The notes beneath the pieces were generated by a model. It saw only the letters and a list, made by a program, of their open reading frames with translations, made no database searches and was not told where the DNA came from. Shown piece by piece: positions 2,325 through 18,578 of a DNA stretch of 42,313 nt (position 1 is its first letter; every line of letters starts with the position of its first letter). This DNA is from a virus, in the IMG/VR virus record IMGVR_UViG_3300036761_001614, positions 1-42,313 of that record, one strand, 5' to 3'. A program made the position numbers and the translations under genes.

Positions 2325-2596
2325 AGGCTCCGCGCGTTTACCACTCGCTCTCGGGTTGGGTCATCGAGACCACGGTCGGTCTCTCTGGCCCGCAACTGGA
2401 GGCTGCCGTGACGTGGGCGCGGCGGGAGTTCGTCCGACAGACCGGGAGGCTTCCTCGGGGCGAGAGACGACAGTCCGTTCTCGATGCCCTCTCGTCCCTC
2501 AGAGCCGAGACGATCCGACAGATACTCGTCAACCCGTACTCCGGGCTGGCGACCGGCGACCGCTTCCCCTTCGCACCTGATCTCATAGGAGGCTGA
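2321..2596 (+). CDS. Small hypothetical protein
   Basis: 91 residues from GTG 2321, which overlaps the TGA of the previous gene. The same frame is open further upstream, but that stretch lies antiparallel-free inside the previous gene and has the Arg/His-rich look of a shadow, so the coupled GTG is preferred. The protein is mostly helical with charged residues (WARREFVRQTGR, ALSSLRAETIRQ). No recognised domain. Confidence 0.65.
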   Translation: MKAPRVYHSLSGWVIETTVGLSGPQLEAAVTWARREFVRQTGRLPRGERRQSVLDALSSLRAETIRQILVNPYSGLATGDRFPFAPDLIGG

Positions 2597-2597
2597 C

Positions 2598-3125
2598 ATG
2601 GCGCAGAACTCTTGGACCGCGTACCACTCCGGTATTACCTTCGCCGCCGGGAAGGCGATGGCCGGGATTCTCAACGGAGGCTCGCGCGTCCTGCGGATCG
2701 CCCGCTGCGGTCTCCTCAACGCGCAGACCGGAGCGGTGACCGGCGTGGCAACCTTCATGGAGGTCCGCTGGTATCCGACGACCGCGACGTGGACGACGCC
2801 GACGACCATTACCCCGACGGCGCACGACTCCGCGAACTCCGCTCTCTCGTCCGTCACAGCCGGGAGCGCCGGGACGCCGGGCGGATCGACGGGGCAGGTT
2901 CTCCGCCGGATCTTCTGGTCATCGGACGAACCCGCGATTTCGACGGCGACCTCGGACGAGCTTGAGTGCTTCGTCCCGCTCAACATCATCTGGGACGCGG
3001 GGTACGGGGACACGGACGTTCAGAAGCTCGTCGTCCGCCAGAACGAGATGTTCAACGTCTACAACACCACCGGCGCGGCGGGCCTCCTCGATACGTGGAT
3101 CGAGTTTACTGATTCGGCGAGTTAA
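2598..3125 (+). CDS. Phage structural protein, hypothetical
   Basis: 175 residues with a strong RBS (AGGAGG at 2588-2593, inside the end of the previous gene). Rich in Thr, Ser, Gly and Val with short alternating segments (VRWYPTTATWTTPTT), typical of a beta-structured virion protein. It is followed after 12 bases by the next small gene. No specific family recognised. Confidence 0.75.
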   Translation: MAQNSWTAYHSGITFAAGKAMAGILNGGSRVLRIARCGLLNAQTGAVTGVATFMEVRWYPTTATWTTPTTITPTAHDSANSALSSVTAGSAGTPGGSTGQVLRRIFWSSDEPAISTATSDELECFVPLNIIWDAGYGDTDVQKLVVRQNEMFNVYNTTGAAGLLDTWIEFTDSAS

Positions 3126-3137
3126 GAAGGGACCGCG

Positions 3138-3320
3138 ATGGCGAACGTCATACAGGTCTACATGGCGCTCGCGCAGGGGGAGTCCTGCTCCTCCTCCTCG
3201 ACGGGCGTCAGCCTCACCCGCTGGCATAAGACCGCCGCGACGATGCTCCAGTACCTGATCGACAACTGGAAGTCCATCGGGATTGCGGCCCTTCTCGCGA
3301 ACGACTGGGCGAAGGACTGA
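3138..3320 (+). CDS. Small hypothetical protein
   Basis: 60 residues; RBS AAGGGA upstream of ATG 3138. Contains a serine cluster (SCSSSSTG) and a C-terminal helix (LIDNWKSIGIAALLANDW). It fills the gap between two structural genes with only a few bases on each side, which supports it as a real gene; function unknown. Confidence 0.6.
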   Translation: MANVIQVYMALAQGESCSSSSTGVSLTRWHKTAATMLQYLIDNWKSIGIAALLANDWAKD

Positions 3321-3323
3321 CCC

Positions 3324-4478
3324 GTGGGCCAGTCCGGCTTCGTCGTCAACCAGCGGCTCGACCCGAGCTATGGGGACTTCACCATCGAGCAGCCGGTGAC
3401 GGCCCTCACGGGCTGGCCCATGAACGAACAGGTCGCGGCCCTCGCTATCTGGAATGGATCAAAGGACCGCTTTGTCCACCTACACCAGCTTTCCGTCCTC
3501 CCGATCATCGGGCCGCAGAATCTCGCCTCGATGATCCAGCTTCGCTCCTACACGGCGGCGAGCGGCGAGACGGTGATCTCTCCGCAGAGCTACGACTCGG
3601 CCGCGAGCGCCCCCCCTTCTCAGGTCGAGGCTCTCTATGCCCCCTATACCGCCACGGCTGGCGCGGCGATCTGGAAGCGAATCCCCTGTGAGCCGGGGGC
3701 GAACCTGACGCGACTCCTCGCCTCCCTCTGCGCGCGGTTGTGGGGGGATTCCTCGAAGGGAGTCGACAACTCGGAGGTCTGCAAGCTGACGGGGGACGCC
3801 GATCTCCAGAAGATCGTCCTCCGGGAAGGCGAAGGCGTCGGCTTGCAGATGACGGCAGCTTCCCCTCCCTGCGCTCTGCTCGCGACCATCGTCTTTCGGG
3901 TTGTCTCAACCTCGGCTTCGTACCGCGTTAATCAGGTGATCCGGCCCCGCTTCGACGCGGGCGAGACCGTGATGACGCTGATGAACAACTCCGGCTCCGG
4001 CGTCGTCATCGAGGTCTGCCGCGTGCAGATCCGGGAGAGCGGCACCGACGATCTTCCTCTCTGCTCGTGGGAGCCTATCGACGGAATGAACCTCGATTTC
4101 GGAGACCCGGCGAGCGTCGTCGGCATGGATTCCCGGAACGTCCTCCCCGCCGAGATCAAGGTCCGCTCCTCCGCGTTCGTCTACAAGGCGGGGACGAAGT
4201 ACGGGGCGACACTCACGCTCCCCTTCGAGCGCCGCCAGCCACAGGTCGTCCCGCCGTGGAATCTTTCCGCCGTGACGGCCCCGCTCCACAACCGCCACGG
4301 GTGGCTCGCGCCGGACCTCGAAACGCAGGGCGGGCAGGGGCAGATCCTCCGGCCCTCACAGGGCTACGCTCTCTTCCTGCGGAATCTATCGGCTCTCTTT
4401 TACCACCAGATTTTCCTCCACTTCGAGGTCGGAAACGACACGCCGCCGAACGCGGCAGGGGTGACCTATGTCAGTTAG
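3324..4478 (+). CDS. Large hypothetical virion protein
   Basis: 384 residues from GTG 3324, 3 bases after the preceding stop. Mixed beta-rich sequence with few charged clusters and a conserved-looking WNGSKDRFVHLHQLSV segment near residue 45. The end overlaps the next gene by 11 bases. Size and place in the post-tip operon suggest a peripheral tail or fibre component. I do not recognise the family. Confidence 0.75.
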   Translation: MGQSGFVVNQRLDPSYGDFTIEQPVTALTGWPMNEQVAALAIWNGSKDRFVHLHQLSVLPIIGPQNLASMIQLRSYTAASGETVISPQSYDSAASAPPSQVEALYAPYTATAGAAIWKRIPCEPGANLTRLLASLCARLWGDSSKGVDNSEVCKLTGDADLQKIVLREGEGVGLQMTAASPPCALLATIVFRVVSTSASYRVNQVIRPRFDAGETVMTLMNNSGSGVVIEVCRVQIRESGTDDLPLCSWEPIDGMNLDFGDPASVVGMDSRNVLPAEIKVRSSAFVYKAGTKYGATLTLPFERRQPQVVPPWNLSAVTAPLHNRHGWLAPDLETQGGQGQILRPSQGYALFLRNLSALFYHQIFLHFEVGNDTPPNAAGVTYVS

Positions 4479-6390: not shown

Positions 6391-8331
6391 ATGGAAGCTC
6401 GAATGACTGAGAACGAGAAGAAAGACATCACCGCGGGCGCTGGACAGCCGGCCCAGCCCGAAAAGCTCGATCTCCGATCCGCGGACATCGCGGAGGAGAA
6501 GAGGCAGGAGCTATTGCGACTTTTCCCCGAGATTCGAACCGAGGGCGGAAAGATCGACTTCGACCGCCTGAAGCTCGCCCTCGGTGAAAAGCTGGACGCC
6601 GGCAAGGAGCGCTACGGGCTAACTTGGCCGGGGAAGGCCGACTGCTTTCGGGCCATACAGACGCCGAGCATCGGGACGCTGAGACCTTGCCCTGAGGAGA
6701 GCGTCAACTTCGACACGACCGAGAACCTCATCATCGAGGGCGACAACCTCGAGGTTCTGAAACTTCTCCAGAAGTCGTACCTGGGGAAGGTGAAGATGAT
6801 CTACATCGACCCGCCCTACAACACGGGAAATGACTTTATCTACCCCGACAACTACAGTGAGTCACTGCAGACCTATCTCGAATACACGGGTCAGGTTGAC
6901 CCGCAGGGGAAGAAGTTCAGCACGAACACTGAGACCGACGGTCGCTTCCATTCGAAGTGGCTAAACATGATGTACCCGCGGCTTTATCTCGCCAGGAATC
7001 TCCTCTCCGATAACGGGGTCGTGTTCGTGAGTATCGATGATCGAGAGCTTGGAAACCTCAGGCGTATCTGCGACGACGTGTTCGGGGAAGAGTCCTTCAA
7101 GGGAACCATTGTTCGGGCGACCGGCCAGACGACCGGGCAAGATAGCGGTGGCCTCGGGGCGTCATTCGACTATGTACTCGTCTATTTCCGTAACCCGGAC
7201 GTCGAGCTGGCAGGCCTCCCTTTGAGCGAAGGCGACCTTGAGCGATATCAAGAGAAGGACGACCGGGGCCAGTATGCGCTCTGGCAGCTTCGAAAGACGG
7301 GCAGTAACGATCGTCGTGAGGATCGCCCGACGATGTTCTTCAAGGTTCGAGACCCTGAGGGCGGAGACGTCTGGCCGATTGGCCCCACGGGATACGAAAG
7401 CTGCTGGCGGTTTGACCCTAAGGGCTACGACCGTTTGGTCGGCCGGAACCAAATTGTTTGGCGACGTCGCAAACGAGGAGACAAGGGGGAATGGTGGCCC
7501 TACGTAAAGACCTACTTGGAGGGTCGCACCAAACGGCCCTCGCCACTCTGGGACGACATCGAGGGCAGCAAGAAGGCGAGCATTGACCTTCGCGCCCTCT
7601 TCGGTGAAAGTGTGTTCAACAATCCAAAACCTGTGGGCCTAATAAGGAGATTGCTGCAGATTGCACCTGAGGGCGGGGAACAGATGTTAGTGCTCGACTT
7701 CTTTGCTGGCTCGGGCGCGACGGCTCAGGCTGTTCTCGAGGAAAGCAAGGAGGATGGGGTTAGCCGCAAGTTCATTCTGGTGCAGCTGCCTGAACCTACC
7801 GGCCGCGAGGACTATCTGACGATCGCAGACATCACGAAGGAGCGGGTTCGCCGCGTCGTCAGTAAGCTGAACAACGAGGGCGCGGGGCAGCTCGGCCTCG
7901 AGGGCGGTGCAAAGCCGGATCGGGCCTTCCGCGTCTTCAGGCTCGCGCAATCGAATTTCAAGACATGGGACGGGGCTGCCGAGCAGGACGTGAGGAAGCT
8001 GGCGGGGCAACTGGAACTGCATGCGGATCATGTGCGTGACGACCGGACGCCTCAGGACATCCTCTACGAAATCCTCCTGAAGAGTGGGTTTCCGCTCACG
8101 ACGCCGGTCGAGACGCTCAAGATCTCCGGGAAGACGGTCTTCGCCGTCGCGGGTGGTGAGATGCTCGTCTGCTTGGAGCAGGGTCTCACCCTCGAGCTGA
8201 TTCGGGAGATCGCCACGCGCACGGTCGGGCGCGTGGTCTGCCTCGACCAGGGATTCGCCGGCAACGACCAGCTCAAGACGAACGCCGTCCAGATCTTCAA
8301 GACGAAGGGCATCGTCTTCAAGACGGTCTGA
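6391..8331 (+). CDS. mod: Type III restriction-modification DNA methyltransferase (Mod)
   Basis: 646 residues; ATG 6403 is an alternative start with GGAAG a few bases before it. It transfers a methyl group from S-adenosylmethionine to adenine in DNA. The catalytic motif DPPY is at residues 140-143 (in YIDPPYNTGNDF) and the AdoMet-binding motif FAGSG at 438-442, the DPPY-first order of beta-class enzymes. Residues 110-125 (LIIEGDNLEVL) and VVFVSIDD are also typical. The C-terminal part (about 510-646) matches the end of Mod proteins. A Mod normally works with a Res helicase-nuclease subunit; none follows here. The coding style differs from the phage (more AAG/GAA mixed use, no coupling upstream), consistent with host-derived DNA. 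Confidence 0.92.
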   Translation: MEARMTENEKKDITAGAGQPAQPEKLDLRSADIAEEKRQELLRLFPEIRTEGGKIDFDRLKLALGEKLDAGKERYGLTWPGKADCFRAIQTPSIGTLRPCPEESVNFDTTENLIIEGDNLEVLKLLQKSYLGKVKMIYIDPPYNTGNDFIYPDNYSESLQTYLEYTGQVDPQGKKFSTNTETDGRFHSKWLNMMYPRLYLARNLLSDNGVVFVSIDDRELGNLRRICDDVFGEESFKGTIVRATGQTTGQDSGGLGASFDYVLVYFRNPDVELAGLPLSEGDLERYQEKDDRGQYALWQLRKTGSNDRREDRPTMFFKVRDPEGGDVWPIGPTGYESCWRFDPKGYDRLVGRNQIVWRRRKRGDKGEWWPYVKTYLEGRTKRPSPLWDDIEGSKKASIDLRALFGESVFNNPKPVGLIRRLLQIAPEGGEQMLVLDFFAGSGATAQAVLEESKEDGVSRKFILVQLPEPTGREDYLTIADITKERVRRVVSKLNNEGAGQLGLEGGAKPDRAFRVFRLAQSNFKTWDGAAEQDVRKLAGQLELHADHVRDDRTPQDILYEILLKSGFPLTTPVETLKISGKTVFAVAGGEMLVCLEQGLTLELIREIATRTVGRVVCLDQGFAGNDQLKTNAVQIFKTKGIVFKTV

Positions 8332-8337
8332 GGTCAC

Positions 8338-8721
8338 ATGCCCGAGCGTGACGAGAACGGCGCATCCGAGATCCTGATCTATCAGACGGACGAACAGCGG
8401 CCTGGAATCCAGGTGCGGCTCGAAGGCGGCACTGTCTGGCTGACGCAGGCGCAGATCGCCGAGCTTTACGAGACCACTCCACAAAATATAACCATCCATC
8501 TCAAAGCGATTTACAGCTCCGGCGAGCTGCCCTTCGAGGCAACATGTAAGGACTACTTACAAGTTCGCGACGAAGGTGGCCGGACCGTTCGCCGGACGGT
8601 CGCGCGCTACAACCTCGACGCGGTTCTGGCTGTCGGGTACCGCGTACGTAGCGCGCGCGGGACGCAGTTCCGGAAGTGGGCCACTGAGCGCCTCCGGGAA
8701 TACCTCGTGAAGGGCTTCGTC
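8338..8721 (+). pseudogene. RhuM family protein, truncated after about 128 residues
   Basis: Starts 6 bases after mod. Residues 11-128 follow the RhuM family closely: ILIYQTDE, VWLTQAQIAELYETTPQNIT, EATCKDYLQV, YNLDAVLAVGYRV, GTQFRKWATERLREYLVKGF. Family members are about 330 residues and often sit between mod and res in type III systems. Here similarity stops at GFV (8721); the frame continues to 9072 only as the antisense of the helicase on the other strand. The C-terminal two thirds are therefore missing. The role of RhuM itself is not well defined. Confidence 0.8.
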
Positions 8722-9732
8722 TTTCTTATCGTCGTACGTCGCCGGAACGTAGGTCCCCTGGCGCATTCCCTCTCGGACGAGCCCGTCCTGGCTGCACCGG
8801 TAGAGGAGTTTCTTCGTCCGGTCGTACTTCCAGCCGAGCGACTCGGCCAGGTCCTTGACCTTGGCCGGGGCGAGCCGACGGAGGGCCTCGATCAACTCCC
8901 GGCGGTCCCGACTCATCATCACCTCTTCGGCGTTTCCGATGTAGGCCCACGAGCCGTGCTCGCGGTCGAACTTCAGGGCGAGTTCGCGCTCTTCGACGTC
9001 GCGGCCGGTGCAGTGGAGAACGGCCTCGTCGGCCCCCCTGGCCCGCGTCAGGACCAGGATCGTGTCGGCTGACCCGGTGAGGCCCGTCGTGCCGGCGACA
9101 TCGTCGAGAACGTCCTCGGTTTTCATTTTCCGGGTGTGATGGACGAGGAGGAGCGCGATCGAGCGGTCGAGGGCCTTTCGCTGAAGCTGGGCGATGAACT
9201 CGGCGTCCTCCTGGTAGACGTCGGCGCCGCGCTTCTTCGGCGTCCGGATGCGGGCCATCGTGTCGAGGCCGACGAAGCGGCAGGACGGGTGCTCGTCGAG
9301 AATCCGCTCGATTTCGGCAAGCCCGCCCTGGTCGATTCGCGGAAGCTCAGTCGACAGGAAGAGGCCGGCCGGCCAGGCGAGCGTCTCGGGGAACATCATG
9401 CGGAGCCGCCGCTGGAGGCGGCGCCGAGTGTCCTCGAGGGCGAAGTAGACGGCATCTCCCTCGGGGGCCGCGAACTGCCCGAGGAAGCTCCGGCCCGTGG
9501 CGACGGCCACGCCGAGGTTCAGGGCGAGGAAGCTCTTCCCGAGCTTCGGGCGGCCGGCGAGGATCGAGAGGCCTTCGGGGATCAGGCCCGGGACCGCCCA
9601 CCGCGGCTCGGGGAAGACCATCGTCCCGAGTGCCTCGGCGGAGACGAGTTCGACGGGCCGGGGGCCGCCTGCTCTTCCGCGCTTCGTCTTCTGAACTTCG
9701 GCGAGGGCCTCGATTCCGAGAAGGTTGGTCAT
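8557..9732 (-). CDS. RecA-like (RepA/AAA_25 type) ATPase, putative helicase
   Basis: 391 residues. Walker A GRPKLGKS at 60-67 after the conserved PGLIPEGLSILAG, Walker B-like FVGLD near 153-157, and LLLVHHTRK near 196-202, the pattern of plasmid RepA and phage RecA-fold helicases. The C-terminal region (about 270-335) looks like a winged helix (LIEALRRLAPAKVKDLAESLGW). From about residue 337 (8722 downward) the sequence is antisense to the RhuM remnant, so the natural end was probably lost or replaced there. Starts in an ATGA overlap with the RHH gene upstream. Likely acts in replication or plasmid-like maintenance. Confidence 0.8.
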   Translation of the reverse strand: MTNLLGIEALAEVQKTKRGRAGGPRPVELVSAEALGTMVFPEPRWAVPGLIPEGLSILAGRPKLGKSFLALNLGVAVATGRSFLGQFAAPEGDAVYFALEDTRRRLQRRLRMMFPETLAWPAGLFLSTELPRIDQGGLAEIERILDEHPSCRFVGLDTMARIRTPKKRGADVYQEDAEFIAQLQRKALDRSIALLLVHHTRKMKTEDVLDDVAGTTGLTGSADTILVLTRARGADEAVLHCTGRDVEERELALKFDREHGSWAYIGNAEEVMMSRDRRELIEALRRLAPAKVKDLAESLGWKYDRTKKLLYRCSQDGLVREGMRQGTYVPATYDDKKDEALHEVFPEALSGPLPELRPARATYAVPDSQNRVEVVARDRPANGPATFVANL

Positions 9733-10040
9733 GCGACAGCCTCGGCCGAGCGCTTCGCGACCTGTGCCGCCACGGCATTGACCACGGCGGCGACGTCCTC
9801 CTCGACGAGCGGCGTCGAGACGATCGGAGGCCCGGCGCCGTAGGCGGCCTCCTGTTCCCGGACCGCCGGCTCTGAGATAGGCCTGGCGTCCAGGCCTTCC
9901 AGGCCCTTCTGGATCACGAGCCGCAAAGCGCCAGCGAAGCCGCCACGCATCTGCTCCTGAATCAGCGAGATACGGGCGGCCTGGTCCGGATCGAAGCGGA
10001 CCGTCTTTGGCGTCTTCTCTGGGGTCTTCCTCTTCGCCAT
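9729..10040 (-). CDS. Ribbon-helix-helix DNA-binding protein (leftward)
   Basis: 103 residues from ATG at 10040; the open frame extends upstream to 10106 but that would cover the operator region and lacks a start signal. Residues 10-48 have the RHH layout: beta strand KTVRFD, helix PDQAARISLIQEQM, turn GG, helix FAGALRLVIQKGLEGL. The remaining 55 residues are Ala/Val/Pro rich and may bind a partner. RHH proteins such as Arc bind DNA as dimers through the beta strand. It is paralogous in layout to the divergent gene at 10105. No Shine-Dalgarno sequence is visible; the predicted transcript may start at the ATG. Confidence 0.75.
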   Translation of the reverse strand: MAKRKTPEKTPKTVRFDPDQAARISLIQEQMRGGFAGALRLVIQKGLEGLDARPISEPAVREQEAAYGAGPPIVSTPLVEEDVAAVVNAVAAQVAKRSAEAVA

Positions 10041-10127
10041 GTAGCCGAACGTAGCCGCTACGTTTCCGCTTGACAAGGCTTCGGACCGGCTACATATTAC
10101 GGCCATGTCAGATTACAAACGGCTACA
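10040..10127. promoter_or_regulatory. Operator array: five TGTAGCCG half-sites
   Basis: TGTAGCCG at 10040-10047, CGTAGCCG at 10050-10057, and inverted copies CCGCTACG at 10055-10062, CGGCTACA at 10087-10094 and CGGCTACA at 10120-10127. The middle pair forms a perfect palindrome, AACGTAGC-C-GCTACGTT (10048-10064), over the leftward -10 box. The copy at 10087 abuts the rightward -10 box; the outermost copies touch or lie just inside the two coding regions. Binding by one or both RHH proteins is inferred. Confidence 0.65.
10041..10104. promoter_or_regulatory. Divergent promoters between two RHH genes
   Basis: Rightward: TTGACA at 10070-10075, 17-base spacer, CATATT at 10093-10098, then ATG 10105. 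Leftward (minus strand): TTGTCA at 10076-10071, 17-base spacer, TACGTT at 10053-10048, then ATG at 10040. The two -35 boxes overlap in opposite directions. In both cases the expected start of transcription falls on or next to the start codon, so both mRNAs may be leaderless. The -10 boxes are weak matches (4/6 and 3/6). Confidence 0.6.
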
Positions 10128-10293
10128 CAGGAAAGCGGAGACGCCCCGGACCGTGAGGTTCGAACGCGAGCAGCTCGCGGCGATCCGCCGAATCGAGAAA
10201 GCCGAGAAGCGGTCCTTCGGGAACGTCGTCCGCCTCCTGATCTCCGAGGCCCTCGTCTCGCGTGAGTTCGAGAGGAAAGAAGGTGTCGCGTGA
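10105..10293 (+). CDS. Ribbon-helix-helix DNA-binding protein (rightward)
   Basis: 62 residues. RTVRFE (strand), REQLAAIRRIEKAEKR (helix), SFGNVVRLLISEALVSREF (helix) give a compact RHH fold almost without extra sequence. It resembles the core of the divergent protein at 9729-10040 (KTVRFD, LVIQKGL). First gene of the early rightward operon; its stop overlaps the next start (GTGA). No Shine-Dalgarno sequence is seen before the ATG. Probable regulator of the divergent promoters. Confidence 0.75.
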   Translation: MSDYKRLHRKAETPRTVRFEREQLAAIRRIEKAEKRSFGNVVRLLISEALVSREFERKEGVA

Positions 10294-10746
10294 GCCTGTA
10301 CCCCGACGACGCTCCCTCCACCGCTCGCGCCTGTAACGAGTGCGACGGTCGCGGCAAGTTCATCGAGCGCTGGCCCGACGGCGACATCCGAAGGATCGAC
10401 GAGTGTGAGAAGTGCGACGGCGGGGGCCGCGTCCTCTGCGTCATGTATTCGCGGACTCGCCCGACGCCGAACTGCACCAGCTTCGCCGTCCACTTCTTCG
10501 CCGACGGCGACGACGACCTCTGTGAATGGTGCTGGTCCCATTGCAGTCGGTGCAGCGAGAAGGTCATCGAAGTCTCCGACGGCGTCTTCTGCCCGTTCTG
10601 CAACGATCAGCGCCTGGCTGTACGACCCCGAGCTCCGGGAGCGCTACCGCGTCGAGCTGCTCCTCGAGCGGATCGGCCGCCGCTACTACACGAGCCCCGG
10701 GCGGATCCGGCGGTGGGAAGACGCGATGCGGGCGAGGCTCGGATGA
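10290..10746 (+). CDS. DnaJ-type zinc-finger protein with apparent frameshift
   Basis: GTG 10290 overlaps the previous stop. The first frame encodes two DnaJ-like CxxCxGxG repeats (CNECDGRG, CEKCDGGG), then CEWCWSHCSRC and CPFCNDQR, all likely zinc ligands. After about 10610 that frame becomes Arg/Pro/Ala rich, while the +1 frame takes over with a protein-like sequence (WLYDPELRERYRVELLLERIG, then YTSPGRIRRWEDAMRARLG) ending at TGA 10744-10746. No start codon fits a separate gene for this second part. Either a +1 frameshift joins them or one base is wrong in the sequence. Function unknown; possibly RNA or protein binding. Confidence 0.5.
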
Positions 10747-10979
10747 CACCGACCGAGCGCCAGTCCCTCGACCGGGCGACCGAGACCGTGCGCGCCATGG
10801 GCGAGCTGGCGCGGCAGGACTGGTGGATGGGCTGGATCGCTTTTCTCGACCACGCCCGCGAGCGGATGCCGGACGTCCTCGAGCCGCGGCAGGCGAGACG
10901 GTGGCCGTGGATGCCGCGGCCGGTCGGACGACTGCTGACCTTCGAGGTTCCGAAGGCAGCGAAACGGAGGCGCCGGTGA
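10743..10979 (+). CDS. Small hypothetical protein
   Basis: 78 residues from ATG 10743 (ATGA overlap with the preceding stop). It lies in the same frame as the start of the zinc-finger gene, so an uninterrupted frame runs through both, but the overlap and composition support a separate start here. Contains WWMGWIAFLDHARERMPD and a basic C-terminus (KAAKRRRR). No recognised domain. Confidence 0.65.
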   Translation: MTPTERQSLDRATETVRAMGELARQDWWMGWIAFLDHARERMPDVLEPRQARRWPWMPRPVGRLLTFEVPKAAKRRRR

Positions 10980-11200
10980 AAGCGTTCCTCGACCGGATCG
11001 ACCTGGGAGACCCGCTCTCGTTCCTTCTCGGAGCGCTCGCGGTCATGTTGGCCCTCGTCGTGCTCGCGCTGGTCTTCTCGGCGATCTTGGCCGCTATGGA
11101 CCGCGCCGAGCGCCAGAGGCTGATCGAACGACGGAAGTATCGGCCACTCCCTGACCCAATGACGAAGAACGCCGAACGGCATAGGAGAAGCCTGTCATGA
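10976..11200 (+). CDS. Single-pass membrane protein
   Basis: 74 residues from GTG 10976 (GTGA overlap). One long hydrophobic segment (about residues 14-37: SFLLGALAVMLALVVLALV) is followed by a basic C-terminal tail (RQRLIERRKY), which favours a cytoplasmic C-terminus. Small membrane proteins in early phage operons sometimes act in exclusion or host control; nothing here shows which. Confidence 0.7.
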   Translation: MKAFLDRIDLGDPLSFLLGALAVMLALVVLALVFSAILAAMDRAERQRLIERRKYRPLPDPMTKNAERHRRSLS

Positions 11201-11499
11201 CGTACCGCCTGGAGATCAACGGCGTCGCCGTCTCTGTGGACACCATCGACGAATTGATGGAGGTCGTCCGCGCCGGCGCGGGGACGGGGCCGCCGAAGGC
11301 GCAGGCGGCCGTTGCGAAGCCGAAGAGGCGCCGCGCCGCTTCGAAGCCCGCCGACGGTGGAGAAGCCCGCTCCACGGAGCCCGGTCCCCTGGTCTGCCGC
11401 AAGCCGCACGGGTGCGGGAAGGCGTTCGAATCGAAGAACCGGATGGCCTGGTACTGCCCCGCGTGCACGGCGAAACGGGACGACGGGAGGCCAGTGTGA
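11197..11499 (+). CDS. Small protein with C-terminal zinc ribbon-like motif
   Basis: 100 residues. N-terminal beta segment (YRLEINGVAVSVDTIDELMEVV), a basic Ala/Lys/Arg linker (residues 35-55), then C-x5-C (CRKPHGC) and, 16 residues later, CPAC, probably one zinc site. ATGA overlap with the previous gene and GTGA overlap with the next. Possible DNA or RNA binding protein; role unknown. Confidence 0.65.
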   Translation: MTYRLEINGVAVSVDTIDELMEVVRAGAGTGPPKAQAAVAKPKRRRAASKPADGGEARSTEPGPLVCRKPHGCGKAFESKNRMAWYCPACTAKRDDGRPV

Positions 11500-11660
11500 A
11501 GCTGCTCGGCAACATCTTCTCCCTGCTCTTGGCGGCGTCCGTGACGTACCTCCTGATCCGCACCCTGCTCGACGGCGTCCAGCCGAAGCACAAGGGCCGG
11601 ACGCCGGGGCTGAACGACGAGCTGGACGAGCGCGAAGAGCGGATCGCGGGGGGGCTCTGA
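11496..11660 (+). CDS. Very small membrane protein
   Basis: 54 residues from GTG 11496, overlapping the preceding stop. One hydrophobic helix (LLGNIFSLLLAASVTYLLI) and an acidic/basic tail (ELDEREERIAGGL). The next gene's ATG overlaps its TGA. Similar in plan to the membrane protein at 10976. Function unknown. Confidence 0.6.
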   Translation: MKLLGNIFSLLLAASVTYLLIRTLLDGVQPKHKGRTPGLNDELDEREERIAGGL

Positions 11661-12667
11661 TGCCGAGGCCCGCCATCCTATTCGACGAGGAGATCCTCCC
11701 CGAGACCGACTTCCAGGCAAATCGCCGCAAGGGGATCGGGAGCTCCGACGTCTCCGCAATCCTCGGTCTCAACCCGTTCAAGACCGCCTTCGACGTGTAC
11801 GTCGAGAAGAAAGGGCTCGTCAAAGAGCGGAAGGCGACGACCTCGATGAAGGTCGGCCGCGCCGTCGAACGCGCAATCGGCGAGGAGTATCAGGCGCAGA
11901 CGGGCCGGCTCCTCGTCTGGCAGGGGGACGTGCAACACGTCGACCCGGAGCGGGACTGGCGGCGCTGTCACCCGGATGCGTTTCTGACCTACGAATCCGG
12001 AGGGCTCGAGTGCAAGCACGTCGGCGCGCGCCAGGCGAAACGGTGGGGGCCCTCCGGGACTGATCTCGTGCCAGAGGAGCACGTCCTTCAGGTCGTCTGG
12101 TGCATGTCCATCACGAATCGGGACTTTTGGGACATCGCCGGCTGGCTCGGCCCGGACGACCTCCGGATCTTCACCGTCCTTCGAGACCTCGAGCTCGAGG
12201 GAAACGTCATCGAGCGCTGTGATCGCTTTTGGCGGGAGAACGTCCTGGCCGGCGTCCCGCCCGACGTGAGGTCCGACCAGGCGGACGCGGACTTCTTCAA
12301 GAAGCGCTTCCCGTCGGCGATGGGAGGCCTCCGCCAGGCGACGACGAAAGAAATCGAGGACGCGATGCTCCTCCGTGCGGCCCGGCAGATCTTCGCCGAT
12401 GCGAAGGCTGGGCGCGAGCTCGTCGAGGCCGAGCTGAAACTCTCTATCGGGACCTCCGAGGGGATCGAGGGCCCCGACTTCCGGATCACCTGGAAGAACG
12501 ACCGCCCAAAGGTCAAGCCGGACTGGCAAGCGGTCGCCCGCGAGCTCGCGCGGACGCACCCGTCCTCGACCGCCCTGGCCGAAGCCGTCGCTCAATTCAC
12601 CACGACCGCCCCCGGGACACGGAGATTCCTCCCTCGCTTCGAGGGAGAAGACGAAGAAAAGGAGTGA
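11660..12667 (+). CDS. YqaJ-family 5'-3' exonuclease (phage recombination)
   Basis: 335 residues from ATG 11660 (overlaps the previous TGA); the longer open frame upstream is shadow. Family hallmarks of the lambda-exonuclease fold: RRKGIGSSDVSAILGLNPF at 23-40, Asp106 in HPDAF, and E-x-K (ECK, residues 117-119) as metal ligands, then Q144 in HVLQVVWCM. This enzyme degrades one strand of double-stranded ends, giving single strands for annealing. It is followed directly by the probable partner at 12673. The C-terminal part (about 230-320) is an extra helical region seen in many YqaJ proteins. Confidence 0.88.
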   Translation: MPRPAILFDEEILPETDFQANRRKGIGSSDVSAILGLNPFKTAFDVYVEKKGLVKERKATTSMKVGRAVERAIGEEYQAQTGRLLVWQGDVQHVDPERDWRRCHPDAFLTYESGGLECKHVGARQAKRWGPSGTDLVPEEHVLQVVWCMSITNRDFWDIAGWLGPDDLRIFTVLRDLELEGNVIERCDRFWRENVLAGVPPDVRSDQADADFFKKRFPSAMGGLRQATTKEIEDAMLLRAARQIFADAKAGRELVEAELKLSIGTSEGIEGPDFRITWKNDRPKVKPDWQAVARELARTHPSSTALAEAVAQFTTTAPGTRRFLPRFEGEDEEKE

Positions 12668-12672
12668 AATCC

Positions 12673-13680
12673 ATGGACACCGCCGCCCCCACCCAGCCGC
12701 TCCAGCCATCCCTCTCCCCTTCGGCGCCCCCGGCCGGGGCTCTCGTCCGAACGCCTCCGCAGGAGATCGTCGCAGGGACCACCGAGCGCGAGAACGTCCT
12801 CGAGGGGACCGAGATCTCTCGCGCCGCCGAGACAGCCTCGACTGCCATGGCCGCCGCCGCGCGCGCCCAGGTGCAGGCTCGCTTCCTGGTCGCCATCCAG
12901 CGCCCGCGGGACATCGACAACTTCCGCGTGAACCTCCTGAAGGACTGCAAGCGCCCCGGCTTCGCAGCCGTGGCCCGCTACCACAAACCGATCGGGAAGG
13001 GGATCGAGGGGCCGTCGATCCGATTCGTCGAGGCCGCCCTGCGCCACTTCGGGAACGTCGTCGTCGATCCGGTCATCGTCTACGACGACCCTCAGAAGCG
13101 GATCGTGGCCGTCACCGCGACTGACCTCGAGACCAACTTCACCGTCGGCCGCCAGGTCGTCGTCGAAAAGACGGTCGAGCGCTCGAAGCCGATGGACGAC
13201 GGCTTCTTCTTCACCGTTCGGAAGAACTCCTACGGGAAGAACGTCTACCTGGTCCCGGCGATCGAGGACGATCTCCTGGCGAAACAGGGTGCCCTCGTCT
13301 CGAAGGCGATGCGGACCGAAGGGCTCCGGCTCCTTCCCGGGGACATCGTCGAGGAGGCACAGGTCTGTATCCAGGAGGTTCTCCGGGACCGCGCCGCGAA
13401 GGACCCCGACGCCGAGCGGAAGGCCGTCGCCGACGCCTTTGCCAGCCTGAACATCGCGCCCTCCGACCTGAAGGACTTTCTCGGGCACGACCTCGCGCAG
13501 TGCTCGCCGGCCCAGCTCGCCGAGCTCCGGGGGATCTACGTCTCGATCAAGGAAGGAGAGATCACCTGGAAGGGAACGATGGCCGCGAAGGCCGAGGAAC
13601 TCTCGAAGGCCGCCGCCATCGCGACGGACGGGCGCGCGAAGACCCAGACCATCAACGAAAAGCTGAACCCGAAGAAGTAG
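12673..13680 (+). CDS. Phage protein of unassigned family, candidate annealing partner
   Basis: 335 residues from ATG 12673 with GGAG at 12661-12664. Residues 1-50 are Pro/Ala rich and probably disordered. The core (about 75-300) has alternating strands and helices: RDIDNFRVNLLKDCKRPGF, IRFVEAALRHFGNVV, VTATDLETNFTVGRQVVVEK, GLRLLPGDIVEEAQ. The C-terminal 45 residues are Lys/Ala rich. Its place between the YqaJ exonuclease and an SMC-like ATPase is where phages usually put a single-strand annealing protein (RecT, Redbeta, Erf), but I do not see the signature of any of these. Function is therefore inferred from context only. Confidence 0.7.
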   Translation: MDTAAPTQPLQPSLSPSAPPAGALVRTPPQEIVAGTTERENVLEGTEISRAAETASTAMAAAARAQVQARFLVAIQRPRDIDNFRVNLLKDCKRPGFAAVARYHKPIGKGIEGPSIRFVEAALRHFGNVVVDPVIVYDDPQKRIVAVTATDLETNFTVGRQVVVEKTVERSKPMDDGFFFTVRKNSYGKNVYLVPAIEDDLLAKQGALVSKAMRTEGLRLLPGDIVEEAQVCIQEVLRDRAAKDPDAERKAVADAFASLNIAPSDLKDFLGHDLAQCSPAQLAELRGIYVSIKEGEITWKGTMAAKAEELSKAAAIATDGRAKTQTINEKLNPKK

Positions 13681-13784
13681 CAATCCCTCCCGCAGAGGTC
13701 CCTCGGGGCGGCGAGAGCGGGGACAGGAGAACGGGGCCGCCGCCTTCGCCCCGGTCTCCGATTTCCAAGGAAAGGAACGCAACC

Positions 13785-15206
13785 ATGCAGGTCCAGAAGC
13801 TGACAATCGACAACATCCTCGGCATCGAGCACCTTGAGATTGAACCCGGTGCGGTCACGGTGATCGAAGGGGGCAACGCCGTCGGAAAGACCTCCGTTCT
13901 CGAAGCGATCAAGGCCGCGCTCGGCGGGGGAAACGACGCGACGCTTCTCCGCCAGGGCGCGAAGGAAGGCTCGGTCGTTCTGATCCTCGAGGATGGCACC
14001 GAGATCCGGAAGACGGTCGGCCCTGAGAGGAGCCCCGTCACCGTCACGCACCCCGCCTTCGGGAAGATCTCGAAGCCGCAGGGCTGGCTCGACAAGCTCT
14101 CCGACGCCCTCGCGGTGAACCCCGTCTCCTTCCTGACGGCTCCCCCCTCGAAGCGGGCGGAGTGGCTCCTCGAGGTCATGCCGCTCACGTTGGAGCCGGA
14201 CGAGGCGACGGCCGACCTCCTGAAGCTCGCGGCATTCGCCGGGAAGGACCCGAAGAAGGACCCCCTCGGGGCGATCGAGGCGGCGCGCCAGGCGCTCTAC
14301 GACAAGCGGACGGCGGAGAACCGGACGGCGAAGGACAAGAAGGCGACGGCCGCGCAGCTCCGCGAGACCCTCCCCCCGGCCGAGGAGGTCCCCGCAGACC
14401 CGACCGCCCTGCGAGCCGAACTCTCGTCGGTCGAGGCGGACCGGGCTGGAGAGCTCCAGAACGCGAAGACGAAGTGTGAGCACGACGTCACCCAGGTCAA
14501 CGTCGAGACGAAGAAGGCGGAGGCCGCGGAAGAGAAGCTCGAGGACGACGAGGTCGCGAAGATCCGACTCGAGACGGAGCGCCGCATCGAAGAGGTCCGC
14601 CTCGTCGGCCGGAAGCGAGCCGAGAAGAGGAACGCCGCGGCGAAGGACGCAACCTCGAAAGCCTACTCAGTCGCGGAGGAGCACGTCGCCGCTGCCGTCG
14701 GGAAGTACGCGGCCCCCCTGGCGGAGCTCGCCGAGAAGATCACGAAGGCCGAGACGCGCCGGGACGAATGGAACCGGGCAGAGAAAACGCGAGAGATCAT
14801 CGCCTGTTCCGAGAAGGACGCAGCTCGGGCCGAGAACGAATCGAAGGCGCTGACGGCGTCGCTGGAGCGCCTCGAAGACGTCAAGACGAAGCTCCTCGAG
14901 AAACTCCCGATCAAGGGCCTCGAGGTCCGGAGCGGGGAGATCTTCTTCAATGGCGTGCCTTTCGACCGGCTAAACCGGGCGCAGCAGGTGAAACTCGCGA
15001 TCGACATCGCGAAGCTCCGGACGAGCCCGCTCGGGCTCGTGGCGGTCGACGGGCTGGAGTGTTTGGAGCCCGAGGCCTTCACCGCGTTCGAAAAGGAAGC
15101 CGCCAAGGCGGGGCTCCAGCTCGTCGTCTGTCGCGTCTCCAGCGGGCCACTGAAGGTCCGGACGGTCGAGGCGTTCCGGGCCTCTGTAGACGTCTCTCCC
15201 AACTGA
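13785..15206 (+). CDS. SMC/RecF-like AAA ATPase
   Basis: 473 residues; start at ATG 13785 supported by AAGGAAAGGAA upstream. Walker A GGNAVGKTS at 29-37 close to the N-terminus, a long charged helical middle (about 165-380, rich in Glu/Lys/Ala, likely coiled coil), and a C-terminal half-domain with LVAVDGLECLEPE as the probable Walker B/signature area. This is the layout of RecF, SbcC or SMC-type ATPases, which hold or process DNA ends. Placed after the exonuclease and possible annealing protein, it probably belongs to the same recombination unit. Confidence 0.85.
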   Translation: MQVQKLTIDNILGIEHLEIEPGAVTVIEGGNAVGKTSVLEAIKAALGGGNDATLLRQGAKEGSVVLILEDGTEIRKTVGPERSPVTVTHPAFGKISKPQGWLDKLSDALAVNPVSFLTAPPSKRAEWLLEVMPLTLEPDEATADLLKLAAFAGKDPKKDPLGAIEAARQALYDKRTAENRTAKDKKATAAQLRETLPPAEEVPADPTALRAELSSVEADRAGELQNAKTKCEHDVTQVNVETKKAEAAEEKLEDDEVAKIRLETERRIEEVRLVGRKRAEKRNAAAKDATSKAYSVAEEHVAAAVGKYAAPLAELAEKITKAETRRDEWNRAEKTREIIACSEKDAARAENESKALTASLERLEDVKTKLLEKLPIKGLEVRSGEIFFNGVPFDRLNRAQQVKLAIDIAKLRTSPLGLVAVDGLECLEPEAFTAFEKEAAKAGLQLVVCRVSSGPLKVRTVEAFRASVDVSPN

Positions 15207-15303
15207 CGCGCGCTCCTTCCAAACCCCACGCCGGGCGCCGGGCTTTTGCGAGGCGCCGACAGCCGGGAGCAGACCGGCTTGCCGGGTCAGGAGGACCAAT
15301 TCA

Positions 15304-15738
15304 ATGCCCAAGAAGAAAACGCCCTTCGGGAAGAAGGGAAGGAAGAGTTCCCCGCCTGCCGTGCGGAGGGTCTACCGCTCGCCGGAGCAGAAGAAGCTCG
15401 CCCCCCGCACGCGGCCGCTCCCCGGCCTCGAGGACGAGCGGATCGACGAACTCTCAGACCTCGCCCTCTCCTGCCTTGACGCTCACGAGGAGAAGAAGGC
15501 CGCCGGCGAGGCCGAGAAGGCGAAGAAGGACGAGCTGATCGCCTGTATGAAGCAGCGCGGCCTGACGCGTTACCGCGATTCCGAATCCGATCTTCTGGTC
15601 GAGCTCGAACTCTCGCACGAGAAGGTCAAGGTCTACACGGGCGTGGCCGTCCCGAAGGAGAAGGCCGAGGAGGAGGACCGCCCGATCGGCGAGGGGACGA
15701 TGGAGACGGCGCCGGCGGCGGCGGAGGTTCCTGAATGA
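15304..15738 (+). CDS. Basic hypothetical phage protein
   Basis: 144 residues with AGGAGG at 15288-15293 before the ATG. Very basic N-terminus (KKKTPFGKKGRKS), then a helical segment (LSDLALSCLDAHEEKKAAGEAEK), a short beta part (RYRDSESDLLVELEL, KVKVYTGVAV) and an acidic tail. The stop overlaps the exonuclease start. A nucleic-acid-binding role would fit the charge pattern but is not shown. Confidence 0.7.
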   Translation: MPKKKTPFGKKGRKSSPPAVRRVYRSPEQKKLAPRTRPLPGLEDERIDELSDLALSCLDAHEEKKAAGEAEKAKKDELIACMKQRGLTRYRDSESDLLVELELSHEKVKVYTGVAVPKEKAEEEDRPIGEGTMETAPAAAEVPE

Positions 15739-16493
15739 CCCCCGGAGGAGGTCGCCTCGTTCTCGCCGTCGACGTCGAGACGACCGGGCTCCTGCCCGCG
15801 ACGGACCAGATCGTCGAGTTCGGCTGGGCCCTCTTCGACGTCGACGTCCGCGAACTCGTGCTTTCGGGCGGAGCCTACGTCGCCGGCGTCGAGGTTCCCC
15901 CAGAGATCCAGCGCATCACCGGGATCCGCCCGGAATGGCCGAGACGCTACGGCCGCCCCCTGGGCGAGCTCCTGAAGGAACTGGCGGCCCTCGACGCCAC
16001 CGCCGAGCCCGTGGCCTTGGCAGCACATAACGCTGCCTTCGACCGGGCGTTCCTGGCGGCCGGGCTCGTCTCCGAGCGGCTCTCCCCGGGGACTTTCGAG
16101 GGCCCATGGATCGACACGATGGCGGACCTTCCCTTCGCCGCCGTGCCGGACTCGAAGAAGCTCAGGTATCTCGCGCTCGATCACGGCCTGGTGCCTGGGT
16201 TCGCGCATCGGGCTCAGTTCGACGCGATCCTCGTGGCGCAACTCCTCGGGCGGTATCCCTTCGATGCCGTCCTACAGCGGGCGAAGTCTCCGGCCGTCAT
16301 CCTCAGGGCCGACGTCTCCTACGACGAGAGGCAAAAAGCGAAGGACCTGGGCTTCCGCTGGGAGCAGCTCGACGGGATCGAGCGGAAGTTTACGAAGCTC
16401 TGGGTCAAGGCTGCCAAGGAGTGCGACCTGCCCGCCCTGCGGGAATCGGCCAAGGCGGCCGGCGTCCGGCTCGTCGAGGTCCCGCCCGCATGA
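15735..16493 (+). CDS. DnaQ-like 3'-5' exonuclease with C-terminal DUF5710-like domain
   Basis: 252 residues, ATGA overlap with the preceding gene. DEDDh motifs are complete: D13 and E15 in VDVETTG, D103 in AHNAAFDRAFL, and H158/D163 in HRAQFDAIL. The enzyme removes nucleotides from 3' ends. From about residue 185 a second domain follows (VSYDERQKAKDLGFRWEQ, RKFTKLWVKA), similar to DUF5710, a small domain often attached to DNA-processing enzymes. Likely role in proofreading or trimming of recombination intermediates within the early operon. Confidence 0.85.
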   Translation: MTPGGGRLVLAVDVETTGLLPATDQIVEFGWALFDVDVRELVLSGGAYVAGVEVPPEIQRITGIRPEWPRRYGRPLGELLKELAALDATAEPVALAAHNAAFDRAFLAAGLVSERLSPGTFEGPWIDTMADLPFAAVPDSKKLRYLALDHGLVPGFAHRAQFDAILVAQLLGRYPFDAVLQRAKSPAVILRADVSYDERQKAKDLGFRWEQLDGIERKFTKLWVKAAKECDLPALRESAKAAGVRLVEVPPA

Positions 16494-16783
16494 ACTCCCT
16501 GCCGACCTCTGCCTGCCGCTATTGCCCGAAGAAGATTCTGTGGGCGATCCATCCCGAGTCCGGCCGCGCGATGCCTCTCGACGCCGAGCCCTCGCCGAAG
16601 GGGACCTGGCGCGTCGAGGCGGGGGCCGACGGGAAGCTCCTCGGCTTCTACGTCAAGAAGACGGACGCGGGGGCGGTGGGGCTCTTCGCGGACGAGCTCC
16701 TCCACGAGAGTCACTGGTCGACGTGCGCCGGGGCCAAGAAGGCGCGGCTCGACGCGGACGCAAAAGGAAAGGAGAAACTATGA
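16490..16783 (+). CDS. Small zinc-finger phage protein
   Basis: 97 residues from ATG 16490, overlapping the previous stop. N-terminal CRYC and C-terminal H-W-S-T-C (HWSTC) probably form one zinc site; between them are MPLDAEPSPKGTW and a short beta segment. Small proteins with this C-x2-C plus H-x3-C spacing are widespread in phage replication regions. No specific function known. Confidence 0.7.
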   Translation: MNSLPTSACRYCPKKILWAIHPESGRAMPLDAEPSPKGTWRVEAGADGKLLGFYVKKTDAGAVGLFADELLHESHWSTCAGAKKARLDADAKGKEKL

Positions 16784-17028
16784 ACGCCCGGAAGCCTCGG
16801 ACAGCACGAATCGAATTCGTTACGACCCGGTCGCGCTCCGAGACCACACCCGGCGCGACCAATTACCGACTGCTCCACCACGTCCGGATCCGCGGCGCGA
16901 ACGGCCGGATCCTCATGGCATCCGAGAGCTACCACTCGAAGACCGCGGCGCGTCGTCTGGCCGTGTGGCTCTGGAGGGTGAGCGCTCTGAAGATGCGGGA
17001 TATCGACGAGACGGGAGATGCCAAATGA
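16780..17028 (+). CDS. Small DUF1508/YegP-like protein
   Basis: 82 residues, ATGA overlap. The middle (RIRGANGRILMASESYHSK followed by TAARRLAVWLW) has the YegP/DUF1508 pattern of a short beta hairpin, a serine/tyrosine turn and an amphipathic helix. Single-copy YegP units bind unknown ligands. It is coupled to the lipoprotein gene that follows. Assignment is tentative. Confidence 0.55.
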   Translation: MNARKPRTARIEFVTTRSRSETTPGATNYRLLHHVRIRGANGRILMASESYHSKTAARRLAVWLWRVSALKMRDIDETGDAK

Positions 17029-17459
17029 GATTGATCATCGTCGTCCTCCTCGCCTTCGGCTCGCTCGGCTGCGACAAGATCAAGGATCCCGTCGCGCCGG
17101 CCTACGTCACTCCGACTCCGGTCCCGGCCGCCACGCAGACCCCGGCTCCCCCGCCGAAGCTGACGCCGACGCCCACGCCGACCGTCGGTTCCCCGGACAG
17201 CAAGACGGAGCGGGCCATGACCTTCATCGTGGAGGACAGGGCTACCGGGGCGCGGTGTGCGAACGCCGGTTTGGACTTCCGGAACATCTCGACCGGCGTC
17301 CTCGTCCACGTCGCCCTGCCGAGCGGAATGGCGACGCTGGTGATGAAGGACGGCGAGTACACCTTCTCGCTCGGCACCCCCGGCTATCAGCTCCTCACCG
17401 GCCAGATCATCGTCAGCTACGCCTGGCAGACGATCACTTTCCAGATGGCGGCGAGATGA
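17025..17459 (+). CDS. Phage-encoded lipoprotein
   Basis: 144 residues from ATG 17025 (ATGA overlap). A clear type II signal peptide: MRLIIVVLLAFGSLGC, with the lipobox LGSLGC and the lipidated Cys at position 16. Next comes a Pro/Thr-rich stalk (about 25-60, PTPTPT, PAPPPKL), then a beta domain (about 65-144) similar in feel to PEGA or carboxypeptidase-regulatory folds (ISTGVLVHVALPSG, GEYTFSLGTPGYQ). It would be anchored in the periplasmic or outer surface membrane. It sits in the recombination operon rather than the lysis region, which suggests early expression, perhaps for superinfection exclusion; that is inference. Confidence 0.8.
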   Translation: MRLIIVVLLAFGSLGCDKIKDPVAPAYVTPTPVPAATQTPAPPPKLTPTPTPTVGSPDSKTERAMTFIVEDRATGARCANAGLDFRNISTGVLVHVALPSGMATLVMKDGEYTFSLGTPGYQLLTGQIIVSYAWQTITFQMAAR

Positions 17460-17959
17460 TGGAGATTCTCTTCGAGGTCTTCGGAACGGCTCAACCGGCC
17501 GGCTCGAAAAGGGCATTCGGCTTCCGCCGCGGTGACGGAAGCGTCGGCGCGACCGTCGTGGACGCCAACCCGAAGAGCCGTCCCTGGAAGACCCTCGTTT
17601 CCGAGACCGCAGCCAGGGTTTACTCCGGCCCCCTCCTCGAGGGGCCGCTCTCGGTCGAGCTCGTCTTCGAGATGCCGCGCCCGCAGGGTCATTTCGGAAA
17701 GCGTGGGCTTCTCCCGTCGGCGCCGGCGCACCCAACGGTGAGGCCTGACGTCCTGAAGCTCGCCAGGGCGGTTGAGGACGCGCTGACGGGGGTCCTCTAC
17801 CAGGACGACTCTCAGATCGTTCACGAGGTCCTCGTGAAGCGCTACGGAGAGCGCGCCCGGCTCGTCGTGACCGTGCGGCGCCCGCTCGCTTACGCCGAAG
17901 CCTCTCCCCTGTCAGGCCGAGAGCAGCCGTCCCTGATCCCGGCGGAGTCTTCGCGATGA
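17456..17959 (+). CDS. rusA: RusA-family Holliday junction resolvase
   Basis: 167 residues; ATG 17456 overlaps the previous stop, and ATG 17459 directly follows. RusA cuts four-way DNA junctions formed in recombination and replication. Typical features: early EVFGTAQPAGSKRAF, the acidic and basic core HPTVRPDVLKLARAVEDALTG with its Asp residues, and YQDDSQIVHEVLVKRYG. It completes the set exonuclease, possible annealing protein, resolvase. The last 20 residues are a polar extension. Confidence 0.88.
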   Translation: MMEILFEVFGTAQPAGSKRAFGFRRGDGSVGATVVDANPKSRPWKTLVSETAARVYSGPLLEGPLSVELVFEMPRPQGHFGKRGLLPSAPAHPTVRPDVLKLARAVEDALTGVLYQDDSQIVHEVLVKRYGERARLVVTVRRPLAYAEASPLSGREQPSLIPAESSR

Positions 17960-18336
17960 GTGCACGCACCGTCGACTGGTCCATCCCTCGCGGACAGCGA
18001 ACGCCGATGGATCTACTCGAACGCTCCCTTCTCGGCGCGTGTCTGATCCTCGGGAAGGTCCCGAGCCAGGCCGTCGCCCCCGGAGACTTCTCCGTCCCGG
18101 AGCACGCCGAGCTCTGGCGGACGCTGAGTGAGATGGCGTCAGCGGGGCGTCCACTCGACCAGGTCCTCGTCCTCCCGGCGCTCGATCGGGCCGGACGCCT
18201 CAAGGATGCCGGCGGTGCGGCCTACGTCTCCGGCCTTGTCGACCGCGTCCCCGACGTCGAGAACGTGGAGGCCTACGCCAGAGACGTGCACGAGGCCGGC
18301 GCGGCGAGGAGATGGAGGCTCCAGCGTGGCGCCTGA
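17956..18336 (+). CDS. Stand-alone DnaB N-terminal domain protein
   Basis: 126 residues, ATGA overlap. The sequence follows the N-terminal helical domain of replicative helicase DnaB: LLERSLLGACLI, FSVPEHAELWRTLSEM, LDRAGRLKDAGGAAYVSGL, VEAYARDVHEAGAARR. It stops where DnaB would enter the linker before its RecA domain. The RecA-like ATPase is the next phage gene, originally starting 11 bases before this stop (GTG 18326). So the helicase seems to be made as two polypeptides. In DnaB this domain supports ring formation and primase contact. Confidence 0.8.
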   Translation: MSARTVDWSIPRGQRTPMDLLERSLLGACLILGKVPSQAVAPGDFSVPEHAELWRTLSEMASAGRPLDQVLVLPALDRAGRLKDAGGAAYVSGLVDRVPDVENVEAYARDVHEAGAARRWRLQRGA

Positions 18337-18363
18337 GCGGGGGCGGGTGGGGCCCCCGGAGGT
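18326..18363 (+). pseudogene. Detached 5' end of the RecA-like ATPase gene
   Basis: GGAGG at 18314-18318 lies 7 bases before GTG 18326. The frame VAPERGRVGPPEV is cut by the low-GC cassette in codon GAG/GT. Removing 18358-19712 joins it in frame to SGSIADEIRKD at 19719 onward. At present the frame runs on into the cassette and stops at 18499, giving a useless peptide of 57 residues. Confidence 0.75.
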
Positions 18364-18407
18364 TCTAACTGCTTATGAAAATCCAACAAAATCAAGAGGA
18401 GTGAAAA

Positions 18408-18578
18408 ATGAAAGTCATCAAAGTCACGAAAGAGTATTTCCAGACAGAGGACGAGAAGGTTTATTTCTTCGAGCCTTTGGAAAAAGAAATATCCGTTGAG
18501 GATATGCAGAAGGTTGTGGATGCAAACGAGAAATTAGTTAAGGAGTTGAAAGATGGAACAAATACCTTTTCCAAATAA
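18408..18578 (+). CDS. 56-residue hypothetical protein of the cassette
   Basis: ATG 18408 with AGAGGAG at 18395-18401, one of the best RBSs in the cassette. The product is Lys/Glu rich and likely helical (EKEISVEDMQKVVDANEKL). It overlaps the methyltransferase start by 26 bases, implying coupled translation. A tiny frame of 9 codons (18375-18404) precedes it and contains its RBS; it could be a leader. No known domain. Confidence 0.6.
   Translation: MKVIKVTKEYFQTEDEKVYFFEPLEKEISVEDMQKVVDANEKLVKELKDGTNTFSK

Follow-up and report, generated by a model that had tools for sequence, protein, structure and literature searches.

A probable shared control region of two divergent, paralogous RHH-like genes in an unclassified bacterial virus

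Main

RHH proteins read DNA through three alternating strand residues. In the immI region of Salmonella phage P22, two homologous RHH repressors are encoded divergently, with overlapping promoters and with operators between the genes (PMC8022706, PMC2629481). Among plasmids, Reg of the pLS20 family is an RHH regulator that acts on short promoter boxes (PMC8708921). Here we describe a region of 64 nt from which two RHH-like genes diverge, in what appears to be the location where the main early-gene switch of the phage would normally be.

The window, that is, the whole stretch of DNA analysed, is the complete IMG/VR virus record IMGVR_UViG_3300036761_001614 (42,313 bases, ~66% G+C). It encodes a terminase, portal, head protease, major head protein, tape measure and tail genes, and its source is an unclassified bacterial virus. 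The same phage, at 99.96% identity, is represented by the nearest record (L022/G001), which starts at window position 16350, so that the control region described here lies outside its coverage, and whose right end is exactly identical. An imperfect direct repeat of 175 nt, 92% alike, stands at both ends of the window (48–222 and 42139–42313). Because the second assembly stops on the same base, the right end of the record is probably where the assembly broke at this repeat, in a genome that is probably circular or redundant.

Results

The minus-strand gene, RHHm (9729–10040, ATG at 10040–10038), encodes 103 aa, with an RHH-like core at residues 9–48 and a C-terminal extension. The plus-strand gene, RHHp (10105–10293, ATG at 10105–10107), encodes 62 aa with an Arc-like core. 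The two cores (TPKTVRFDPDQAARISLIQ / TPRTVRFEREQLAAIRRIE, and further on) align without gaps. Their local score of 75, where 1000 shuffles reached 48 at most, bears out the similarity put forward in a preliminary description of this DNA and supports the view that RHHm and RHHp are paralogs.

That both are RHH proteins, as the same description held, stands less firmly: RHHp resembles Arc, but neither protein matched any Pfam or NCBIfam family, and RHHm is connected to RHH proteins via RHHp. The RHH_1 and Arc models, run over the record, found nothing. RHHp gave a weak match to phrog_3431, an Arc-like repressor family (E = 0.15), a score of 39 against P22 Arc (p = 0.002), and p = 0.018 against an omega-repressor sequence, while RHHm by itself scored above shuffles with no known RHH sequence, P22 Arc and omega included. 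Searches of IMG/VR and of phage and plasmid collections, with single sequences or the pair alignment, returned no relative of either protein. A PDB sequence search gave only chance matches to repeat proteins and was set aside, and AlphaFold monomers predicted from single sequences with no alignment (pTM 0.42 and 0.26, no ribbon seen) were uninformative for the ribbon. Because no RHH profile match was significant, we call the proteins RHH-like rather than members of the family; that they are RHH proteins is likely, on distant similarity, through RHHp and by transitivity.

In AmrZ, an RHH protein, the DNA-reading strand residues are Lys18, Val20 and Arg22 (PMC3325190). These positions align to P13, T15 and R17 in RHHp and to P11, T13 and R15 in RHHm, and are thus identical in the two proteins, for which one shared half-site would be predicted, as the array between the genes shows. 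The corresponding residues are Q/N/R in Arc and H/N/R in Mnt; there the recognition residues differ, and so do the operators.

The sequence between the two ATGs (10041–10104) can be read directly as two divergent genes with face-to-face, overlapping -35 boxes, TTGACA at 10070–10075 on the plus strand and TTGTCA at 10076–10071 on the minus strand, just as had been proposed. Promoters were scored as sigma-70-like matches out of 12. The rightward promoter (10070–10098), TTGACA and CATATT separated by a 17-nt spacer, has its -10 at 10093–10098, ending 6 nt before the ATG; with 10 of 12 matches it is the single best sigma-70-like site on either strand of the 42 kb. The leftward one (10048–10076, minus strand; TTGTCA-17-TACGTT) is weak by sequence, since its -10 (10053–10048, ending 7 nt before the ATG) matches the consensus at only three of six positions and its total of 8/12 is shared by 75 sites. 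We rejected the possibility that leftward transcription has a better promoter farther upstream, as the minus strand has none of at least 8/12 up to 10420.

Neither gene is preceded by a Shine-Dalgarno (SD) sequence (-1.7 kcal/mol each), whereas most other starts in the record have one, and the predicted start points fall at the start codons; both points had been claimed and both held. Among the 658 ATGs of the two strands, six have a promoter of at least 8/12 whose -10 ends 5–8 nt upstream. The RHHm and RHHp starts are included, and ATG 10105 is the only one of the six at 10/12. With so few ATGs passing and both gene starts among them, we rejected an accidental origin of this geometry. Promoter geometry and the absent SD fit the predicted leaderless transcripts of RHHm and RHHp, which supports the prediction but does not prove it.

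Five half-sites of the GTAGC type lie within 88 nt. TGTAGCCG at 10040–10047 (plus strand) touches the RHHm start codon; CGTAGCCG at 10050–10057 (plus), 10 bp from the first, and CGTAGCGG at 10055–10062 (minus) form the left and right arms of a palindrome; TGTAGCCG at 10087–10094 (minus) overlaps the right -10; and TGTAGCCG at 10120–10127 (minus) lies inside RHHp codons 6–8, where it uses the rare Leu codon CTA (2.7% of Leu codons). The earlier count of five is thus right, but the fifth site belongs to the rightward coding sequence and not to the 64 bases, and the word, though clustered, is exactly TGTAGCCG in only three of the five. The 17-nt palindrome that had been noted over the leftward -10, AACGTAGCCGCTACGTT at 10048–10064, is perfect, and the record has just one other perfect palindrome whose arms reach 8 or more.

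The half-site cluster is real but, taken alone, moderately significant. TGTAGCNG occurs five times in the record against 1.4 expected, with three of the five copies in this array, and 5 of the record's 23 copies of GTAGCSG fall within these 88 nt, their densest cluster. A freely chosen 7-mer present four times in 88 nt has p = 0.006 by order-1 resampling; eight other places in the 42 kb equal that count, mostly with GC-rich words, and with a free word and one mismatch allowed p rises to 0.065. Conservation of the array in related phages had been suggested as a check; our searches yielded no relative that carries this array, so there is no footprinting across species. A scan of viral contigs for the operator pattern gave 11 loci, all rejected as coding sequence or, in one unrelated contig (L018), as an unrelated intergenic repeat island. 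This island, at 13390–13600, holds about a dozen GTAGCGG/CCGCTAC repeats, with no RHH-like gene seen adjoining.

Both genes are tightly joined to their downstream neighbours. The RHHm stop overlaps (ATGA) the start of the second gene of a leftward operon, which encodes an AAA_25 (RepA-like) ATPase (8557–9732, minus strand; AAA_25 match 3e-29) whose relatives are distant Firmicutes, phage and plasmid proteins. In the fetched loci of these relatives we found no RHH-like gene of note and no RHH sequence relative. A RhuM-like frame at 8338–9072, preceded by a DNA methylase gene (6391–8331), overlaps the convergent ATPase gene; its profile match stops after position 62 of 252, and it is probably truncated. 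On the other side, the RHHp stop overlaps (GTGA) the start of a gene for a CxxC protein, the first in a rightward early operon of recombination and replication genes (10290–20967, plus strand), which continues with a YqaJ/RecE-like exonuclease, phrog_3657, phrog_1499, an RNase-T-type exonuclease, RusA, a DnaB N-domain protein and a helicase. RHHp, which leads the early operon, thus occupies the place of Cro.

The rightward operon includes an AT-rich, IS607-like insert (~18360–19715), which separates the DnaB N-domain gene from the helicase gene and is bounded on each side by GGAGGT. Inside, a TAG interrupts an MT-A70-like methyltransferase frame, and there is an IS607-type serine recombinase; no TnpB was seen. 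This is the only serine recombinase of the record, which may be incomplete and in which we found no tyrosine integrase (PF00589), XRE repressor or ParA-type (PF13614) gene. Since the searches revealed no integrase belonging to the phage itself, a role of the locus in lysis and lysogeny is unproven. A second repeat array lies between the helicase gene and a zinc-ribbon ORF at 20971–21131, with AGTGCGTCTA four times in direct orientation, TAGACGC inverted, TAACTGCGCTA twice and a perfect 8-bp hairpin, GCGCCTAT-AGTAA-ATAGGCGC, at 21048–21068; this array is a candidate for origin iterons or for a late-operon operator.

To survey RHH-like genes elsewhere, we used local similarity and a small profile, whose E-values are circular because it was built from its own hits. 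None of the terminase-related phages found carries a close copy of RHHm or RHHp, but three of them have RHH-like genes. In G010 (L121), an HTH_3 gene (E = 8e-8) diverges from the RHH-like gene at a distance of 67 nt; the promoter of the latter, TTGACT-16-TATGTT, has a -10 ending 6 nt before the ATG, there is no SD, and the gene is predicted to be leaderless. CGTCYR units at 14429, 14439, 14449, 14473 and 14483, mostly in 10-bp steps, run from this promoter into the coding sequence. The RHH-like gene of G027 (L137) points away from an XRE gene that neighbours a large serine integrase; it has an SD and a leader, so that leaderlessness is not general. In both of these phages, the RHH-like gene faces an XRE repressor and holds the place of Cro. 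The third gene, in G026 (L060), was rejected as a switch, since it sits behind the portal gene and has an SD; the relative in this phage matches the Arc-like phrog_3431 at 2.5e-4.

The viral contig L150 encodes a sequence relative of the G010 protein. All six copies of TACCGAA in its 5.6-kb locus lie within 75 nt before the ATG. At 2474–3498 this contig has two tandem RHH-like genes with the TACCGAA half-site array between them, and the product of the neighbouring gene (2474–2782) resembles a double RHH protein on visual inspection. As a mere pattern across four cases, which does not amount to a test, different strand residues go with different half-site words, and the same residues, as in the window, with one word.

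Discussion

On balance we think it probable that the 64-nt region, together with the first RHHp codons, is the shared operator and promoter region of two paralogous, Arc-like RHH regulators. Its basis in the sequence is that the paralogous genes diverge, that their promoters overlap, that the half-sites cluster and that the start codons fall at the predicted transcription starts; the palindrome, the record's best promoter, the leaderless geometry, the rare CTA codon, the identical recognition residues, the parallels in G010, G027 and L150 and the precedent of the P22 mnt/arc layout also favour it. Against it stand the missing Pfam and NCBIfam matches, the lack of an RHH match for RHHm, the poor left -10, the moderate significance of the cluster, the absence of a relative with the array and the SD of the G027 gene.

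In such a shared region, RHHm and RHHp would both bind the GTAGC half-site as dimers, perhaps heterodimers, through the identical strand residues P/T/R, and would do so cooperatively, with half-sites spaced by about whole helical turns (10, 32 and 33 bp). Proteins bound at the palindrome and the 10040 site would turn off the weak leftward promoter, and with it RHHm and the AAA_25 ATPase, while occupation of the 10087 and 10120 sites would turn off the strong rightward promoter of RHHp and the recombination/replication operon. RHHp may be Cro-like, damping its own early operon after onset, whereas RHHm would favour the other state, its C-terminal extension possibly serving to form tetramers, as in Mnt. 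The overlapping -35 boxes would make the two promoters mutually exclusive, and leaderless mRNAs would allow operators to cover promoter and start codon together, with translation freed from the SD. The two states may be lysogeny and lysis or only early and late timing. A fuller version, an all-RHH immunity switch, seems unlikely to us. It would place the paralogs in both the CI and the Cro positions on one half-site, maybe as heterodimers, with both mRNAs leaderless and their start codons in or next to operators, and would set the operon of the RepA-like ATPase, for a plasmid-like prophage, against the lytic early operon.

The main rival is plain autoregulation, in which both promoters are damped by a single array-binding protein, most likely RHHp, giving negative feedback on early transcription but no switch, RHHm having drifted to another role, for example as a partner or regulator of its ATPase operon. 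The better RHH match of RHHp, the weak leftward promoter and the phages G010 and G027, each with a single RHH gene and its own sites on the early side, are consistent with such feedback. However, the recognition-strand residues are identical in both proteins, and the leftward -10 and the RHHm start codon are covered by the palindrome and two half-sites, as would be expected if this promoter were a main target; we consider this rival possible but somewhat doubtful.

A different emphasis would make RHHm and the ATPase the copy-control operon of a plasmid-like prophage, with the array as its operator and RHHp merely linking it to the lytic operon. The overlap of the two genes in one operon, the strength of the AAA_25 match, the distant ATPase relatives on plasmids and the record's lack of a detected integrase all suit replication or maintenance control of this kind, which we nevertheless hold to be quite improbable, given that no ParA-type gene was found in the record, that AAA_25 proteins are common in phage replication modules too, and that the distant ATPase relatives have no RHH sequence relative beside them in the fetched loci. 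It is very improbable that chance alone brought the half-sites together in a short intergenic stretch and that the proteins are no RHH regulators at all: the absence of any family profile match and the p of 0.065 would allow it, but the perfect palindrome over the left -10, the record's best promoter, leaderless geometry on both sides, the similarity of RHHp to Arc and the similar arrays beside other RHH-like genes argue against it.

If the shared control region is what it seems, the arrangement of Arc and Mnt, which in P22-like phages is known from an accessory immunity region, would also serve elsewhere as a primary early-region switch, and the place of Cro could be filled by an RHH protein. 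Paralogs with the same recognition residues on one array would form a compact natural test system, in which switching would depend on dose and cooperativity rather than on sequence discrimination, with translation free of the SD.

The lambda cI mRNA transcribed from PRM is leaderless. With the lambdoid CI/Cro right operator the present locus shares divergent promoters, a regulator on each side, one family of operators and an early operon on one side; the regulators are HTH proteins in lambda, whereas here both sides have a putative RHH protein and both genes are predicted to be leaderless. The contrast drawn earlier between an RHH switch and the HTH pair of CI and Cro is thus right, but divergent RHH/RHH regulators are a kind already known from P22 immI. 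In G010 and G027, as here, an RHH-like gene leads the early side, and in G010 it is likewise predicted to be leaderless, with half-sites in 10-bp steps; the opposite partner in these phages is an HTH protein, however, the half-site words are others, and the G027 gene has an SD. The plasmid RHH regulators CopG, omega and Reg also act on short boxes at promoters, but each is a single regulator with no divergent RHH paralog.

The closest likeness is to mnt and arc of P22 immI, where, as here, two homologous regulators diverge from overlapping promoters with repeats between them, one protein being short (Arc, 53 aa; RHHp, 62 aa) and the other C-terminally extended (Mnt, 83 aa; RHHm, 103 aa). The P22 genes are separated by 90 nt rather than 64, and have two operators, Oarc and Omnt, rather than one half-site word; arc is preceded by GAGGTG, whereas neither gene here has an SD, and RHHm has no sequence match to Mnt. 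immI controls the antirepressor gene ant inside a late operon, whereas the genes downstream here are not ant but the AAA_25 ATPase and the recombination/replication operon. Three features are new relative to P22 immI: the locus heads both the early recombination/replication operon and an ATPase operon, its array is built on one shared half-site word, and each of its two genes has a leaderless geometry.
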